From the NCBI RefSeq assembly GCF_009663685.2, contig NZ_RCOG02000001.1:248152-312151 (forward strand): a stretch of 64,000 nt of DNA. Reading direction: 5' to 3'. A program made the translations under genes and the position numbers. Below are positions 5,627-27,591 of the stretch, piece after piece. Within the stretch, counting starts at the first letter, position 1. Every line of letters begins with the position of its first letter. The stretch comes from Cupriavidus sp. U2. GTDB lineage: Bacteria > Pseudomonadota > Gammaproteobacteria > Burkholderiales > Burkholderiaceae. The notes under the pieces were generated by a model, which saw only the letters and a program-made list of their open reading frames with translations, did not search any database and was not told the DNA's origin.

Positions 5627-7295
5627 CGCGCCCCTCGCCCTCGGCCAGCGGTTCGCCATCGTCGGCGGGGTCGCGGCCATCCCGGCCATCGCGTTCGTCG
5701 CGAATGCCCAGTTGCTGGATGCGGTAGCGCAGCTGGCGGAAGTTCAGGCCCAGCAGCGGCGCGGCAGCCGTGCGGTTGAAGCCGGTCTGGCGCAGCGCTC
5801 GCAGGATCATCGCGCGCTCCACGGCTTCCAGCCGCGCGGGCAGGTCGATCGGGAATTCGATGTCGGCCAGCGCCGCGCCCAGCGGGTCGGTCACCGCACC
5901 GTCGCCGCCCTGCCCGGCTTCGCCAGCATCCACGCCGGGTTCGGGCGCCCGTTCGGAAAGACCGCCCATCGATGGCGCTGCGCCGGTGGCCGGCCAGGTC
6001 GTCGAACTGCCCCACGCGTGATAGCCGACCGGCGCCGGCACGGGCGCGACGGCAGGCATCGGCGGCATGCCCGCCTGCAACAGGCTGGCGCGCTCCATGC
6101 CGGCGTCGAGCGGCCCCAGATCGGCCACGGCGATCTCGTCGGTCTCCGCAAACGCGTAGGCGCGCTCCAGCAGGTTTTCCAGTTCCCGCACGTTGCCCGG
6201 GAACGGATACGCCGCCAGGCGCTCCAGCGCGGCGCGCGACAGCCGTTTGGGATGGGCATCGCCATAACGCGTGGCCAGGTGCTCCAGGATGGCATGCGCC
6301 AGCACGGGCACGTCCTCGCTGCGCTCGCGCAGCGTCGGCATGCGCAGTTCCAGCACGTTGAGCCGGTAGTACAAGTCCTGCCGGAACAGGCCGGCCGCCA
6401 CCATCGCGGCCAGATCCTTGTGGCTGGCGCACATCACGCGCACGTCCACGCTGTCTTCCTTGCTGGCGCCGATCTTGCGCACGCGGCGTTCCTGCAGCGC
6501 GCGCAGCAGCTTGACCTGCATGGCCAGCGGCAGGTCGGCCACCTCGTCCAGCATCAGCGTGCCGCCATGGGCGGCCTGGAAGAAGCCCCCGCGCTCGGCG
6601 TCGGCGCCCGTGAAGGCGCCCTTCACATAGCCGAAGAATTCCGACTCCATCAGCGTTTCGGGAATCGCGCCACAGTTCACGGCCACGAACGGGTGCGCCG
6701 ACCGGGCGCTGATGGCGTGGATGGCGCGCGCGGCGCGCTCCTTGCCGCTGCCGGACTCTCCGCTGATCACCACGGGCGCCATGCTGCGCGCCAGCCGCGA
6801 CAGCGAACGCCGCACCTCGCTGACGGCCGCGGACACGCCGGGCAGCAGCTGCGCCGCGCGGTCGGCCAGTTCCGACGACTCCGCCGGGCTGACGCCATCG
6901 GCTGGCGCGCGGTGCTGCCGCCCCAGCGCGTTCAGGATCAGCGTGCGCAGTTGTTCCAGCGAGACCGGCTTGGCGATGTAGTCGAATGCGCCCGCCTTCA
7001 GCGCATCCACGGCGTTGTCGGCGCTGCCATAGGCCGTGATCACCGCCACCGGCGTCCGCTCGGGCGACGCCGACAGCTGGCGCACGATGTCGATACCCAG
7101 CCCGTCGCCCAGGCGCATGTCGGTCAGCACCAGGCTGTAGCGGCGCTCGGCCAGGCGCAGGCGCGCCTCGGCCAGCGAACCGGCCATCACCACGTCATGG
7201 CCCATGCGGCGCAGCGAAATGTCCAGCAGCTCGCGCAGGTCGGCCTCGTCGTCGATGACGAGAATCGGGGCGGGGGCGGGCGGTCTGGGTGGCAT
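5619..7295 (-). CDS. pilR: Sigma-54-dependent response regulator PilR
   Basis: An NtrC-family transcriptional activator of about 558 residues. The N-terminal receiver domain starts at ILVIDDEAD, has the phosphoacceptor in LVLTDMRLGD, and ends with the conserved lysine in YIAKPV. The central AAA+ domain has Walker A GESGSGKE and the GAFTGA loop that contacts sigma-54. The C-terminal Fis-type helix-turn-helix contains TGFNRTAAAPLLGL. The receiver closely resembles Pseudomonas PilR, and the gene follows a PilS-type kinase after 38 bp. It should activate pilin transcription from -24/-12 promoters; no pilA gene lies in this window. The ATG at 7295 was chosen because the receiver domain begins directly after it, although the frame stays open upstream inside pilS. 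Confidence 0.9.
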   Translation of the reverse strand: MPPRPPAPAPILVIDDEADLRELLDISLRRMGHDVVMAGSLAEARLRLAERRYSLVLTDMRLGDGLGIDIVRQLSASPERTPVAVITAYGSADNAVDALKAGAFDYIAKPVSLEQLRTLILNALGRQHRAPADGVSPAESSELADRAAQLLPGVSAAVSEVRRSLSRLARSMAPVVISGESGSGKERAARAIHAISARSAHPFVAVNCGAIPETLMESEFFGYVKGAFTGADAERGGFFQAAHGGTLMLDEVADLPLAMQVKLLRALQERRVRKIGASKEDSVDVRVMCASHKDLAAMVAAGLFRQDLYYRLNVLELRMPTLRERSEDVPVLAHAILEHLATRYGDAHPKRLSRAALERLAAYPFPGNVRELENLLERAYAFAETDEIAVADLGPLDAGMERASLLQAGMPPMPAVAPVPAPVGYHAWGSSTTWPATGAAPSMGGLSERAPEPGVDAGEAGQGGDGAVTDPLGAALADIEFPIDLPARLEAVERAMILRALRQTGFNRTAAAPLLGLNFRQLRYRIQQLGIRDERDGRDGRDPADDGEPLAEGEGRDV

Positions 7296-23196: not shown

Positions 23197-23313
23197 TGTC
23201 GAACCTCTCGATGTTGATTGAAACGATGAATGCTGCCCCGGGAGGCCCGAAGCCGGCGCCGTTTCGTGCGCCGCAGACGGTGCGCGCATGAAACGCGACC
23301 GAAGGAACCGCAA

Positions 23314-23342
23314 ATTATAATCCGGTTTACGGAAAAGCGCAA
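23314..23342 (-). promoter_or_regulatory. Promoter of rplU-rpmA
   Basis: On the minus strand TTGCGC (23342-23337), a 17-bp spacer, then a perfect TATAAT (23319-23314). The transcript would start near 23307 and give a leader of about 110 nt, long enough for ribosomal-protein or stringent control. Confidence 0.75.
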
Positions 23343-23412
23343 AGAAAACAACGGGATAGCCGGCCGGACGCCGGTTGAGGCGGGCGGCGCACTTCCGGCG
23401 TTGCGCGCAGGA

Positions 23413-23511
23413 TCAGGTCAGGTCGGCCAGCAGAAACCCGGCCAGGGCAGCGAACGCCACCCACCAGGCGGTGCGGCGGACATGCCGGCGGGATGCATGG
23501 GGCTTGTCCAT
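23413..23511 (-). CDS. Possible 32-residue single-helix membrane microprotein
   Basis: The frame reads a basic start (MDKPHASRRHVRRT) followed by one hydrophobic helix (AWWVAFAALAGFLLADL) and ends. A TATAAT lies on the minus strand at 23523-23518, six bases before the ATG, so a transcript from it would begin at or next to the start codon, i.e. leaderless. No Shine-Dalgarno is present. The topology is typical of short inner-membrane proteins with a cytoplasmic, positive N terminus. No family was recognised and the frame could be chance. Confidence 0.35.
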   Translation of the reverse strand: MDKPHASRRHVRRTAWWVAFAALAGFLLADLT

Positions 23512-23619
23512 GGCGGCATTATAGGGGCGCCAGCGCCGCCGCAGACACCCTTCCCCCGCCGCGCCTGACATTCCCTTCCATCCCGCGCCAGCGACAGCCA
23601 TAGTCACATCGGCATCGCA

Positions 23620-23637
23620 TATAATCCTCCGGTTTTG
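23620..23637 (+). promoter_or_regulatory. ispB -10 box and 5' exon bearing IBS2-IBS1
   Basis: TATAAT (23620-23625) is followed by CCTCCG (IBS2, 23626-23631) and GTTTTG (IBS1, 23632-23637), and then the intron. The -10 is perfect, but no good -35 is seen. It points toward ispB, from which it is now separated by about 3 kb of intron. The predicted start near 23632 would leave only about six exon bases in the transcript. Confidence 0.6.
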
Positions 23638-24796
23638 GTGCGACACGCACGCTCGTGTCCGGGTAGCTCCAACGTAAGGAGCATCGACCTTTCGTTGAGA
23701 CAAGGGGAAAGCTTCGGCCTGAACCGTCCAATCTCAACCATTTCTTGCTTTGACAAGCCCAGCCGCAAGGCTGGAGCGAGTCCATGTGTTGCGGGAAGGC
23801 CAGCGTATCGGCTAACTCGCAGCTTGCTATTTGCTGGATGGATTTCCAGCCATTGCCCAAAGGCGGGGACGCTTGCCTTTGGGCAGGTGTCTTTGCAGTA
23901 CGCGCTCTCCCCGGAGGGTGCGGGTGGACATGCAGCGGCAGTTTCGCTGCGTGTTCGCTACATAGCGTTTAAACCGACCCAGTAGGGTCGGCGCTACGTT
24001 CTTTGGGACGCAGGCCATGTGCTCACAAGAGCCCGCCTGTCGTCAAGCGCCTGCCAGCACGGAGGCACTGAAGTAATGAAGTGAGGTTTCCCGGAGCGTA
24101 TAGCTCTGCGCGTTATGGTTCGGTCGAATACACCCGCGAGGGTGCCTCGATAGAGAACCTGCTATGCGACTAGCAGTAGCCTATGGAGACATGCGTCACT
24201 GGTTAACGGTGGGGTATGAAGCTCTCCTGACAACGCTGCCCCCGTAAGGGTGCGTCCATGCCGTGAGGCCGGGATGTAGAGGCTCCCAGCAGCAAAGGGG
24301 TCGAGGTGCGGGCTGGCTGGTATGGGTAACGTAGTGAACTGCTGATAAACGTCGTAAGGATTGCGGTGCCAAAGCTGCTGATAGGCACTAACCAAACGGT
24401 ACGTGGTCGGATGCCCCGCTCAAAACTCGGGACACGTCGCTAGTATGACCACCGGCGGAGAGGCAGGCCCTAACCCAGTCGTGTAATGCGCAGGGAACGT
24501 GGTAAGCCCGTATGGCTGCCGGAGTGCAATTTGACTCAGGCAGGCGAACCGTAAGGAACGCTGTTGGCTGTGCGGGTATGGGAGGTTGGAGAAAGCGAAC
24601 GCCAGGCTGTAATGGTCCGGATAGGGGTTGAAACATCATCCCACGCGAAAGCGGGCAGACTTCCAACTGGTCTCTCGTCGCAAGACGGCTGACTGAACTC
24701 GCTTGTTTAATTTTCTTCCCTTTGGGGGGTGACATGCCCCCCAAGGGGGCATGTTGTCTCTGCTGTTTGGGGAAGTCCTCAAGATAGGAGAGCAGC

Positions 24797-26497
24797 ATGG
24801 AAGTATTGATCCGAGAGGATGAATCTGCGCCCTCCGGCATCCCGCAACGATGGGGCGACATCAATTGGCGCCGCGTCGATCGGAATGTTCGGGCAATGCA
24901 GATTCGAATTGCGAAGGCAACACAGGAAGGGGATTGGCGCCGGGTGAAAGCCCTGCAACGATCCCTGACCCGCTCGTTTTCCGCCAAAGCATCGGCGGTA
25001 AGGCGAGTGGCGATGAACCAAGGTGCGCGGACGGCAGGAGTCGACCGCGAAAAGTGGAAATCGCCTGAAGCCCGATGGGAAGCCATCGGGCGGTTGAAGC
25101 ACCGGGGGTACCGCCCGCTGCCGTTAAGGCGGGTTTACATCCCCAAGGCCAACGGAAAGGAACGCCCTCTGGGTATCCCGACCATGTTGGACAGAGCCAT
25201 GCAGGCGTTGTATCTGCTGGCGCTGGAACCAGTGTCCGAAGGGACGAGCGATCCGAACTCCTATGGGTTCCGGATCAATCGATCCACGGCGGATGCCATG
25301 TCCCAGCTATTCGTCAATTTGTCCAGAAAGGCTTCGGCCCAATGGATCCTAGAAGCGGATATCAAAGGGTGTTTCGACCATATCAGTCACGACTGGCTGG
25401 AGCGCAATGTCCCTATGGACAAAGCAATCCTGCGGAAGTGGCTGAAAGCTGGCGTGGTATTTCAGGGCCAGTTTCAGGCGACCGACGCTGGAACACCACA
25501 GGGGGGCATCATTTCCCCGACCTTGGCTAACGTGGCACTGAATGGGTTGGAACAACAACTGGTCGAGTCCCTACGGGCAAAGCTGGGAGTAACCAACACG
25601 AAGAAGCTGAAAGTGAATGTCGTACGGTATGCAGATGACTTCGTGATCACCGGCAACACGCCGGAAGTCCTAGAAAACGAAGTGAAGCCGTGGGTGGAAC
25701 AGTTCCTAGCAACAAGGGGGCTTTCGCTATCCACGGAGAAAACGCGAATCGTCAACATCGCCGAAGGCTTTGACTTCCTTGGGTGGAATTTCCGGAAGTA
25801 CTCGGGAACACTGCTCATCAAACCGAGCAAGAAGAACGCACAAACGTTTTATCGCAAGGTCAAGGAGGTCATCAGTGCTCACAGCGGGCGAAAGCAGGCG
25901 GACCTAGTCCAAACGCTGAACCCGATGCTCAGGGGCTGGGCGCAGTATCACAGCCCAGTGGTTGCGAAGGCGACGTTCACCCGAATGGAGCACCTGATAT
26001 TTAGGGCGCTGTGGAGGTGGGCAAAACGGCGACATCGAAGAAAGAAAGTTGAATGGGTGCGAAAGAAATACTTCGCATCAATCGATGATCGGAATTGGGT
26101 GTTCGGTTCCACGGAAGTGAACAAGGCTGGCGAACGCTACTGGAAAGGACTGTATTCGATCCCGAGTACGCCTATCCGGAGGCACAAGAAGGTGCGGGGG
26201 GACTACAACCCTTTCGACCCAGCGCAGGAAATGTATGGCGAAACGCTGCGACAGGAACGCATGGCAGAAAGCATGGCGTACCGGAAGCAGTGGGCAAAGC
26301 TGTTCATGTCCCAGCGAGGCTTGTGCGCGGTGTGTCACAGCGCGATAAGCAAAGAGACCGGGTGGCATGACCACCACATCGAACCCAGAGTAGCAGGCGG
26401 GTCCGACGCTCTAAGCAATCGTGTACTGGTACATCCCGACTGCCATGTCCAGGTTCATCACTATGGCAGAGCCGCAGTGAAGCCGGTGTTTGAGTAA
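24797..26497 (+). CDS. ltrA: Group II intron-encoded reverse transcriptase/maturase with HNH endonuclease
   Basis: A 566-residue multifunctional protein that binds the intron RNA, helps it splice, and copies it into target DNA. In order it has an RVT-N segment (about residues 17-100, ending YRPLPLRRVYIPK); the reverse transcriptase with GIPTMLDRAMQ, GCFDHISHDWL, GTPQGGIISP and the active-site YADD (about residue 280); the maturase domain X (LNPMLRGWAQYH); and a C-terminal HNH nuclease with CAVCHS, DHHIEPRVAGGSD and HPDCH. The ATG at 24797 follows TAGGAGAGCAGC. All catalytic residues look intact. It lies in intron domain IV. Confidence 0.96.
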   Translation: MEVLIREDESAPSGIPQRWGDINWRRVDRNVRAMQIRIAKATQEGDWRRVKALQRSLTRSFSAKASAVRRVAMNQGARTAGVDREKWKSPEARWEAIGRLKHRGYRPLPLRRVYIPKANGKERPLGIPTMLDRAMQALYLLALEPVSEGTSDPNSYGFRINRSTADAMSQLFVNLSRKASAQWILEADIKGCFDHISHDWLERNVPMDKAILRKWLKAGVVFQGQFQATDAGTPQGGIISPTLANVALNGLEQQLVESLRAKLGVTNTKKLKVNVVRYADDFVITGNTPEVLENEVKPWVEQFLATRGLSLSTEKTRIVNIAEGFDFLGWNFRKYSGTLLIKPSKKNAQTFYRKVKEVISAHSGRKQADLVQTLNPMLRGWAQYHSPVVAKATFTRMEHLIFRALWRWAKRRHRRKKVEWVRKKYFASIDDRNWVFGSTEVNKAGERYWKGLYSIPSTPIRRHKKVRGDYNPFDPAQEMYGETLRQERMAESMAYRKQWAKLFMSQRGLCAVCHSAISKETGWHDHHIEPRVAGGSDALSNRVLVHPDCHVQVHHYGRAAVKPVFE

Positions 26498-26519
26498 CTC
26501 ATACATTTTGTAGAGGCTT

Positions 26520-26596
26520 GAGCCGTATGCGGGGAAAACTCGCACGTACGGTTCTTAGGGGGGAGGGATCCAGCAATGGGTTCCTCCTACCCTCCC
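26520..26596 (+). ncRNA. Group II intron domains V and VI
   Basis: Domain V begins GAGCCGTATGCGG, contains the catalytic AGC triad at 26521-26523 and closes with CGTACGGTTC. Domain VI pairs GGGGGGAGGG with the C/T-rich strand ending ACCC, leaving one unpaired A at 26589, the expected branch-point nucleotide. Together they form the splicing active site and lariat branch point. Confidence 0.9.
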
Positions 26597-26613
26597 GAAA
26601 CGGTGATCTCATC

Positions 26614-27591
26614 TTGTCCCAGTCTTCCGCCACTGCCTTGCTTGCCCCGGTCGCTGCCGACATGCGCGCCGTTGACGCCGTGATCCGCCGACGCCTGTCG
26701 TCGGAAGTCCCGCTGGTCGAACAGATTGGCGAATACATCATCAGCGCGGGCGGCAAGCGCCTGCGCCCGGTCATCCTGCTGCTGTCGGCGCGCGCGTTCG
26801 GCTACGAGGGTCATCGCCATCACGAACTGGCCGCGGTGGTGGAGTTCATCCACACCGCCACGCTGCTGCACGACGACGTGGTGGACGAATCCGAACTGCG
26901 CCGGGGCCGCCAGACCGCCAACGCCGTGTTCGGCAATGCCGCCAGCGTGCTGGTCGGCGATTTCCTCTACTCGCGCGCGTTCCAGATGATGGTCGACGCC
27001 GGCAGCATGCGCATCATGGAGATTCTCTCCAACGCCACCAATGTGATCGCCGAGGGCGAGGTGCTGCAGCTGCTGAACATGCACGACCCCGATGTCACCG
27101 TGGAACGCTACCTGCAGGTGATCCGGTACAAGACGGCCAAGCTGTTCGAGGCTTCGGCGCAACTGGGCGCGGTACTGGCCGGCGCCGACGCCGCCATGGA
27201 AGAAGCGGCCGCCGAGTACGGCCGGCGCATCGGCACGGCATTCCAGCTGATCGACGACATGCTGGACTACACGGCCAGCGCCGAGCAGATGGGCAAGAAC
27301 GCCGGCGACGACCTGCGTGAAGGCAAGCCCACGCTGCCGCTGCTGCACCTGCTGGAGCATGGCACGGCCGAGCAGCGCGAACTGGCCCGTGACGCCATCG
27401 TGCAAGGCGGCACCGAACACTTCGACGCCGTCTTCTCGGCCATCCACGCCAGCGGCGCGCTCGAAGTAACGTTCGCGGCCGCGCGCCACGAGGCCGAAGC
27501 CGCCGAGCGGGCCGCCATGCAGTTTCCGGACTCGCCGCTCAAGAACACGCTGATCGAGCTGTGCGCGTTCTCGCTGCAGCGGCAGAGCTGA
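26614..27591 (+). CDS. ispB: Octaprenyl diphosphate synthase
   Basis: A trans-polyprenyl synthase making the C40 side chain of ubiquinone from FPP and IPP. The 325 residues show the first Asp-rich motif LLHDDVVDESELRRG and the second, FQLIDDMLDYTA, plus GGKRLRP for substrate binding. The TTG start at 26614 is chosen: GGTGA lies 7 nt upstream and the N terminus (MSQSSATALLAPVAADM) looks natural; the frame extends back into the intron without meaning. The group II intron ends about 17 bp before this codon, cutting the gene off from its TATAAT box. ispB is essential in organisms that depend on ubiquinone, so expression must pass through the intron. Confidence 0.94.
   Translation: MSQSSATALLAPVAADMRAVDAVIRRRLSSEVPLVEQIGEYIISAGGKRLRPVILLLSARAFGYEGHRHHELAAVVEFIHTATLLHDDVVDESELRRGRQTANAVFGNAASVLVGDFLYSRAFQMMVDAGSMRIMEILSNATNVIAEGEVLQLLNMHDPDVTVERYLQVIRYKTAKLFEASAQLGAVLAGADAAMEEAAAEYGRRIGTAFQLIDDMLDYTASAEQMGKNAGDDLREGKPTLPLLHLLEHGTAEQRELARDAIVQGGTEHFDAVFSAIHASGALEVTFAAARHEAEAAERAAMQFPDSPLKNTLIELCAFSLQRQS

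Follow-up and report, generated by a model that had tools for sequence, protein, structure and literature searches.

In a window of 64,000 nucleotides from Cupriavidus sp. U2 (contig NZ_RCOG02000001.1; the window is the whole stretch of DNA analysed here), a group II intron stands between a predicted promoter and ispB, the probably essential gene for octaprenyl diphosphate synthase. This intron very probably belongs to a single proteobacterial clade of group II introns whose homing site contains a promoter -10 element, so that a placement taken by the initial annotation for an oddity of one host is common to the clade. In the target, as the sequences show, a T and an A at about -16 and -15 from the insertion point are followed by intron-binding site 2 (IBS2), read by exon-binding site 2 (EBS2) of the intron, by a short gap, and by IBS1 (-6 to -1), read by EBS1. 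The parts concerned, with the evidence for each in brackets, are as follows.

23620..23625, + strand: TATAAT, the -10 box of the predicted ispB promoter and part of the homing target (sequence; TANNNT in 26/26 intron-free loci and 37/37 family sites)
23623..23627, + strand: IBS2 (AATCC), overlapping the 3' half of the -10 box (5/5 pairs with EBS2; pairing anchored on the box)
23632..23637, + strand: IBS1 (GTTTTG) (6/6 pairs with EBS1)
23638..26595, + strand: group II intron, IIB / chloroplast-like (GTGCGAC 5' end, Rfam matches, empty-site junction)
23660..24096, + strand: structured extension past the first bases of domain I, limits approximate (alignment with outgroups; fold)
24158..24308, + strand: core of domain I, RF02012 (group-II-D1D4-7) match (Rfam, 108.9 bits)
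24358..24362, + strand: EBS2 (GGATT), whose third base, A, is the partner of the final T in the -10 box (covariation and pairing counts)
24421..24426, + strand: EBS1 (CAAAAC) (domain I alignment, covariation, pairing counts)
24797..26497, + strand: intron-encoded protein of 566 aa with reverse transcriptase (RT), maturase domain and HNH endonuclease (open reading frame, domain searches)
26518..26595, + strand: domains V and VI, RF00029 (Intron_gpII) match (Rfam, 63.3 bits; fold of 26498-26610, z -5.06)
26596..26613, + strand: 3' exon leader of ispB (empty sites)
26614..27591, + strand: ispB, octaprenyl diphosphate synthase, TTG start (NCBIfam NF008140; TTG and next codons common to relatives)

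The intron at ispB

Both ends of the intron (23638-26595, +) were fixed by the comparison with intron-free relatives for which the initial annotation had asked. The 5' edge is GTGCGAC at 23638, 12 bp past the TATAAT, and intron-free orthologous ispB sites such as that of locus L005 read CATATAATCCACCGGTTTTG^CGAAACGGTGATCTCATCTTG across the insertion point; in L005 the empty site runs CATATAATCCACCGGTTTTG^CGAAACGGTGATCTCATC and then into the ispB TTG, which gives the 3' edge. An insertion at the predicted transcription start of ispB had been proposed before and is borne out by the sequence, the Rfam matches, the RT/maturase open reading frame and the empty sites. The 3' end does lie just before the ispB TTG as proposed, but at 26595 instead of 26596, leaving a 3' exon of 18 bp and not 17, and the predicted spliced junction becomes GTTTTG^CGAAACGG in place of GTTTTG-GAAACGG.

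The gene is identified as ispB by NF008140 on the longer open reading frame 26518-27591 (E 2.1e-126); its start and frame lie entirely in the 3' exon and the coding sequence is not split by the intron. A search of its own genome found the ispB intron in single copy, its protein and its RNA part each matching once. Among the best 30 ispB loci of 60 genomes searched, all in the genus of the window, the intron is present in 4 and absent from 26. The surroundings are divergent: rplU, rpmA and obg (read by eye) are on the minus strand, and the intron followed by ispB runs the opposite way.

Box, pairing and descent across the family

To describe the family, a protein search was made of genome contigs, the best 80 of at least 565 relatives were taken (67-100% identical), and intron starts were found by ungapped matching without use of the upstream sequence. 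A 5' end was readable at 76 of the 80 loci; L043, L106 and L109 lack one, and L040, whose 5' end is only 254 bp before the protein gene, was first scored as unreadable and then counted in, its box being visible by eye. Together with the window copy and L040, the 76 readable introns make 78 introns at 37 distinct sites; both ends are available for 77 of the 78 (L104 has no 3' end), and every site has a usable member. Burkholderiaceae account for 72 of the 80 loci; Arenimonas, Rhodanobacter, Pseudomonas and others have one each. The wider family is uncommon, with a protein match in 12 of 274 genomes of the class (E 1e-90) and 11 of 399 of the order (1e-150); as to copies per genome, five fetched loci are on NZ_OCSR01000001.1 and four in Ralstonia sp. 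25mfcol4.1.

All 76 readable introns are preceded by a TANNNT hexamer starting at -16 to -18, and so are all 37 distinct sites, where it starts at -16 in 29, at -17 in 6 and at -18 in 2, the window copy having -18 and the spacing of L074 being ambiguous (16 and 18 both fit). The background for the same motif over -95 to -21 averages 0.15 of the 37 sites per position. The box is also present at L132 and L134.

Gene calls on the joined host flanks of the 37 sites, made with a codon-usage gene caller, placed no site within a predicted gene (0/37) and the next downstream gene in sense at every one (37/37), at a median distance of 80 bp (range 10-1752). Four sites have their next called gene more than 350 bp away, L099 and L078 among them. 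At L099 the caller put the gene start 1100 bp away, but the ribF start, judged by eye, is about 20 bp past the intron. At L078 a clade intron stands shortly upstream of a sense tRNA-Ser gene (6860-6949), which is nearer than the next called gene; from this locus, a tRNA promoter may also be a target. Judging by their N-termini, we take the downstream genes to include ispB, gltX, ribF, rpiA, erpA, secB, psd, secA, lepA, uvrC and prfB, among others. By eye, some genes are targets in more than one genus: ispB also in a Paraburkholderia (L068), where IBS1 differs, and ribF in Undibacterium as well as Cupriavidus.

The reading of the target was analyzed by aligning domain I and testing each intron column for covariation with the exon positions of the 37 sites. 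EBS1-IBS1 gave the strongest covariation signal, and a second covarying run joined exon positions -13 to -9 to window positions 24358-24362 (sum of z 13.8 vs at most 6.2 in 50 shuffles). With G-U pairs allowed, EBS1 and IBS1 pair 6/6 at 33 of the 37 sites and at least 5/6 at all of them (shuffle maximum 8 in 2000 shuffles), and EBS2 and IBS2, anchored on the box, pair 5/5 at 35 and at least 4/5 at 36 (shuffle maximum 12, again in 2000). At L069, EBS2 pairs 2/5 as aligned, and a one-base alignment shift would by eye restore the pairing. The seven sites with a spacing of 17 or 18 all pair 5/5 at the box and 1-2/5 at the fixed distance, and thus it is the box, not the distance, that anchors EBS2. 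The IBS1 proposed earlier (GTTTTG, 23632-23637) stands, with 6/6 pairs to EBS1; the IBS2 proposed with it (CCTCCG) gives way to AATCC (23623-23627), the covarying partner of EBS2, which overlaps the -10 box.

IBS2 takes in the final three bases of the -10 box and the two that follow. The third base of EBS2 lies opposite the box's last T and is A at 37/37 sites; the other EBS2 bases covary with the site, by which a constant EBS2 was rejected. The first T and the A of the box fall outside both EBS pairings. In sigma70 -10 boxes the T, the A and the last T are the most conserved positions, and the three fixed target positions of the clade are these same three. By analogy with EcI5 (PMC2882425), the TA of the box would be read by the intron protein; residues specific to the clade, such as W299, F332, L484, D525 and R542, are candidates for this role.

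In a protein tree of 109 rows, all 84 box-positive rows fall in one clade (SH-aLRT 100). This clade has 89 rows, comprising the 84 with a box at -16 to -18, four unreadable ones and L116, which was scored negative since its TATTAT starts at -15 and which by eye precedes an M48-peptidase-like gene in sense. Outside the clade, TANNNT at -14 to -19 was found in 0 of 24 readable introns, these being the 19 readable outgroup rows of the tree, L122 and L235-L238 (the tree leaves out L122 and L123 as too short, and L123 and L142 have no readable 5' end). When six introns were added to the tree, those of phage phi3 and of Pseudomonas (pPH2PALO530), which have no readable 5' exon, fell inside the clade, and L235, a Serratia plasmid intron that is 59.7% identical and has no box, formed a long branch just outside it.

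The distance from intron start to protein gene is 870-1363 nt in 77 of the 78 clade introns (254 in one truncated copy; 973 in clade member L116) and, in the outgroup, 533-723 nt in 15 of 20 introns and 822-1022 in the other five. The extension has no counterpart in the short outgroup introns; the length from the intron start to the extension column varies from 219 to 633 nt in 77 clade introns, and the fold of window positions 23638-24130 has a z of -7.3.

Some related introns turned up in unusual contexts. Three outgroup introns, L115 (587-3243), L124 (587-3245) and L141 (from 529), in genomes G296 and G460, break up tRNA-Gly genes within the anticodon arm, and each carries an intact tRNA-Gly gene just before its protein gene (ARAGORN: TCC in L115, CCC in L124 and L141), with by eye the same anticodon as the broken gene; on these sequences they look self-compensating. 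A 2837-bp circular Pseudomonas aeruginosa 'plasmid', pPH2PALO530 (L234, 1-2837; CP075775.1), is exactly one clade intron, from GTGCGAC to CTACCCGAC, and is more likely a collapsed-repeat contig than an intron circle. The record of phage phi3 (L233, 1-2930; KT887559.1) begins one base before a clade intron, after which a tRNA-Met gene follows; this is probably a piece of host DNA, with the intron at a tRNA promoter beside the attachment site.

Promoter recognition, motif recognition and splicing

Intron-free Cupriavidus loci of four targets keep TANNNT (-14 to -19) at 104 of 105 empty sites: 26/26 for ispB, 27/27 for ribF, 25/26 for erpA and 26/26 for a peptidyl-prolyl-isomerase-like gene (one erpA locus, L202, 1 of 30, is a second, 62% identical match in a genome already counted). 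The sequence just upstream of the box drifts at ispB and ribF, and is conserved too at erpA. That the clade reads the motif is well supported; that it reads promoters as such is likely from these comparisons.

It is quite possible, on the other hand, that the intron ribonucleoprotein reads a fixed DNA motif whose likeness to a -10 box is only incidental, AT-rich motifs being rare elsewhere in GC-rich genomes and genic insertions being purged. This overlaps with homing to promoters in that the motif is read in both, but in this alternative promoter activity plays no part, and several results favor it or otherwise weigh against promoter recognition. In a test with a -35 matrix, the used sites showed no enrichment over TANNNT occurrences that are genic, antisense or sense intergenic (p 0.85, 0.98 and 0.99, all one-sided), and plain TTGACA matches, compared at 37 spacings, were highest at 17 by a slight margin (1.84 vs 1.78 and 1.76 at other spacings). 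A consensus scan found no sigma70 promoter in 23200-26650, a scan that misses the predicted ispB promoter too. In the host flanks TANNNT occurs 578 times in genes, 386 times in sense intergenic positions and 164 times in antisense ones, with 50 undetermined, and in GC-rich host flanks the stricter TANAAT is mostly sense intergenic (44 of 66, with 11 antisense intergenic and 11 genic); motif recognition alone could give much of the placement pattern in such hosts. A plasmid copy in C. taiwanensis (L127, intron from 2922) has TACTAT at -16 and no convincing sense gene downstream. Finally, in the enlarged tree the node that separates the clade from the box-negative L235 has support 0, the node that includes L235 having 100, and the box trait may have arisen just after the L235 branch or been lost on it.

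Two points tell against the motif alone. The 37/37 sense sites exceed the 44/55 among intergenic TANAAT; under a TANAAT reading alone, 37/37 sense intergenic has a chance of ~3e-7, or ~3e-4 if genic insertions are purged, values that assume an independence the sites do not fully have. Moreover, the fixed T, A and last T are, as stated above, the most conserved positions for sigma70, and the other box positions vary with EBS2. A stronger version of promoter homing, with the retroelement landing in the transcription bubble and favoring active promoters above silent copies, appears to us rather unlikely.

Transcription usually starts about 7 bases past the -10 box, and G 23632, as the 7th base past it, is what we take to be the usual +1 place. 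With a start at this distance, the ispB RNA is predicted to begin at or near G 23632, with a 5' exon GUUUUG that is exactly IBS1; for a box at -16 the transcribed 5' exon is predicted at about 4 bases. Insertion would fall at about +4 to +7 after the predicted start. The host promoter would survive it, and nearly the whole intron, starting at or close to its 5' end, would be transcribed in sense. After splicing, the ispB mRNA would have a leader little different from the original one, and unspliced RNA would keep the ispB frame intact. Changes in EBS1 and EBS2 would let copies settle at other promoters.

The initial annotation had rightly pointed out that, on the predicted start, IBS1 is transcribed and IBS2, which overlaps the -10 box, is not. 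The paradox that it drew from this is weaker than claimed. According to the available text of PMC3123198, EBS1-IBS1 is both required and sufficient for in vivo excision of RmInt1, IBS2 and position -15 are needed for homing and not for excision, the distal 5' exon matters for DNA homing, and cis-splicing of ai5-gamma needs only EBS1-IBS1. On these published grounds, splicing without IBS2 in the RNA should be workable. By this analogy the supposed paradox is probably just how the intron normally works: the part of the target that is not transcribed, with IBS2 and the -10 box, probably serves DNA recognition only, and splicing would need the transcribed part, consisting of IBS1 or most of it.

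An intron that is not spliced, staying as a 3-kb leader or leaving ispB to a promoter inside the intron or further upstream, seems improbable. In its favor, the 3' exon holds the complete ispB frame, whose expression does not depend on exon joining; against it, the EBS-IBS pairings, domains V and VI and the intact-looking maturase speak for splicing, and the consensus scan found no promoter inside the intron, though the predicted ispB promoter was missed too. A chance landing beside a coincidental TATAAT, for which nothing speaks beyond the single site, is rejected on the family data as next to impossible, given equal geometry at 37/37 distinct sites in one clade.

Intron class and known systems

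In its make-up the ispB intron is an ordinary group II intron of the IIB type; its RT-maturase-HNH protein looks intact, and it is predicted to splice. It has a GUGYG-type 5' end (GTGCGAC), matches to RF02012 and RF00029, a domain V/VI fold in which the bulged A is inferred (likely the branch point, at 26589), EBS1 and EBS2 that pair 6/6 and 5/5 with IBS1 and IBS2, and an RT-maturase with RT and GIIM domains (TIGR04416 at 380 bits, RVT_1, RVT_N, GIIM and HNH). Group II introns usually end in AY; the ispB intron ends in CC, and several others of the clade end by eye in TAC or GAC. The solved structure closest to the intron protein is 6ME0 (residues 17-555, E 7e-173; next best 6.9e-39), which we take to be T. 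elongatus TeI4h, of the IIB / chloroplast-like class; with the HNH endonuclease (En) domain, this match places the intron in the same class. The HNH domain, together with TANNNT upstream of 37/37 sites, argues against class C (IIC), terminators not having been scanned for.

The make-up of the intron is known, and its -10-box target rule was not found in print: no description of promoter-homing group II introns was met in titles and abstract openings of the open-licence papers listed, an absence that is not proof. The part of a 2015 review available to us gives three target specificities of bacterial group II introns, namely homing sites, terminator motifs and attC (PMC4424553), and a clade homing to -10 boxes would, if real, be a fourth. 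Every new copy would then arrive in sense under a working promoter, split no reading frame and be hard for the host to delete. The DNA-only and RNA halves of the exon-intron code would be separated at the transcription start, which would allow natural sites to be used for testing what IBS1 and IBS2 each do, and the clade would be a natural basis for directing insertions to promoters in laboratory bacteria.

Among solved structures, TeI4h is the nearest by protein; EcI5 is likewise an intron of the IIB / chloroplast-like class. In the available text of PMC2882425, the EcI5 protein reads bases -18, -17, -15, -14 and +5 beside the IBS stretches, positions that fall in the neighbourhood of the TA in the ispB-clade target; unlike the ispB clade, the T. 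elongatus introns are placed by that text between genes, within other introns, in an insertion element and in a few genes, and no promoter rule is given in it.

RmInt1, of group IIB, reportedly targets an insertion sequence, unlike the ispB clade. Its IBS2 at -13 to -9 and its IBS1 ending at -1, as given in the text of PMC3123198 available to us, are at the positions found in most ispB-clade introns. Its protein, as described in the accessible part of PMC8914252, has no endonuclease domain, unlike that of the ispB clade.

Group IIC introns, which use terminator or attC motifs and have no En domain according to the same part of the 2015 review (PMC4424553), resemble the ispB clade in homing to a gene-expression signal rather than to one gene and in sparing coding sequence; the ispB clade differs from them in using a -10 box, largely read by EBS2, and in having an HNH domain.

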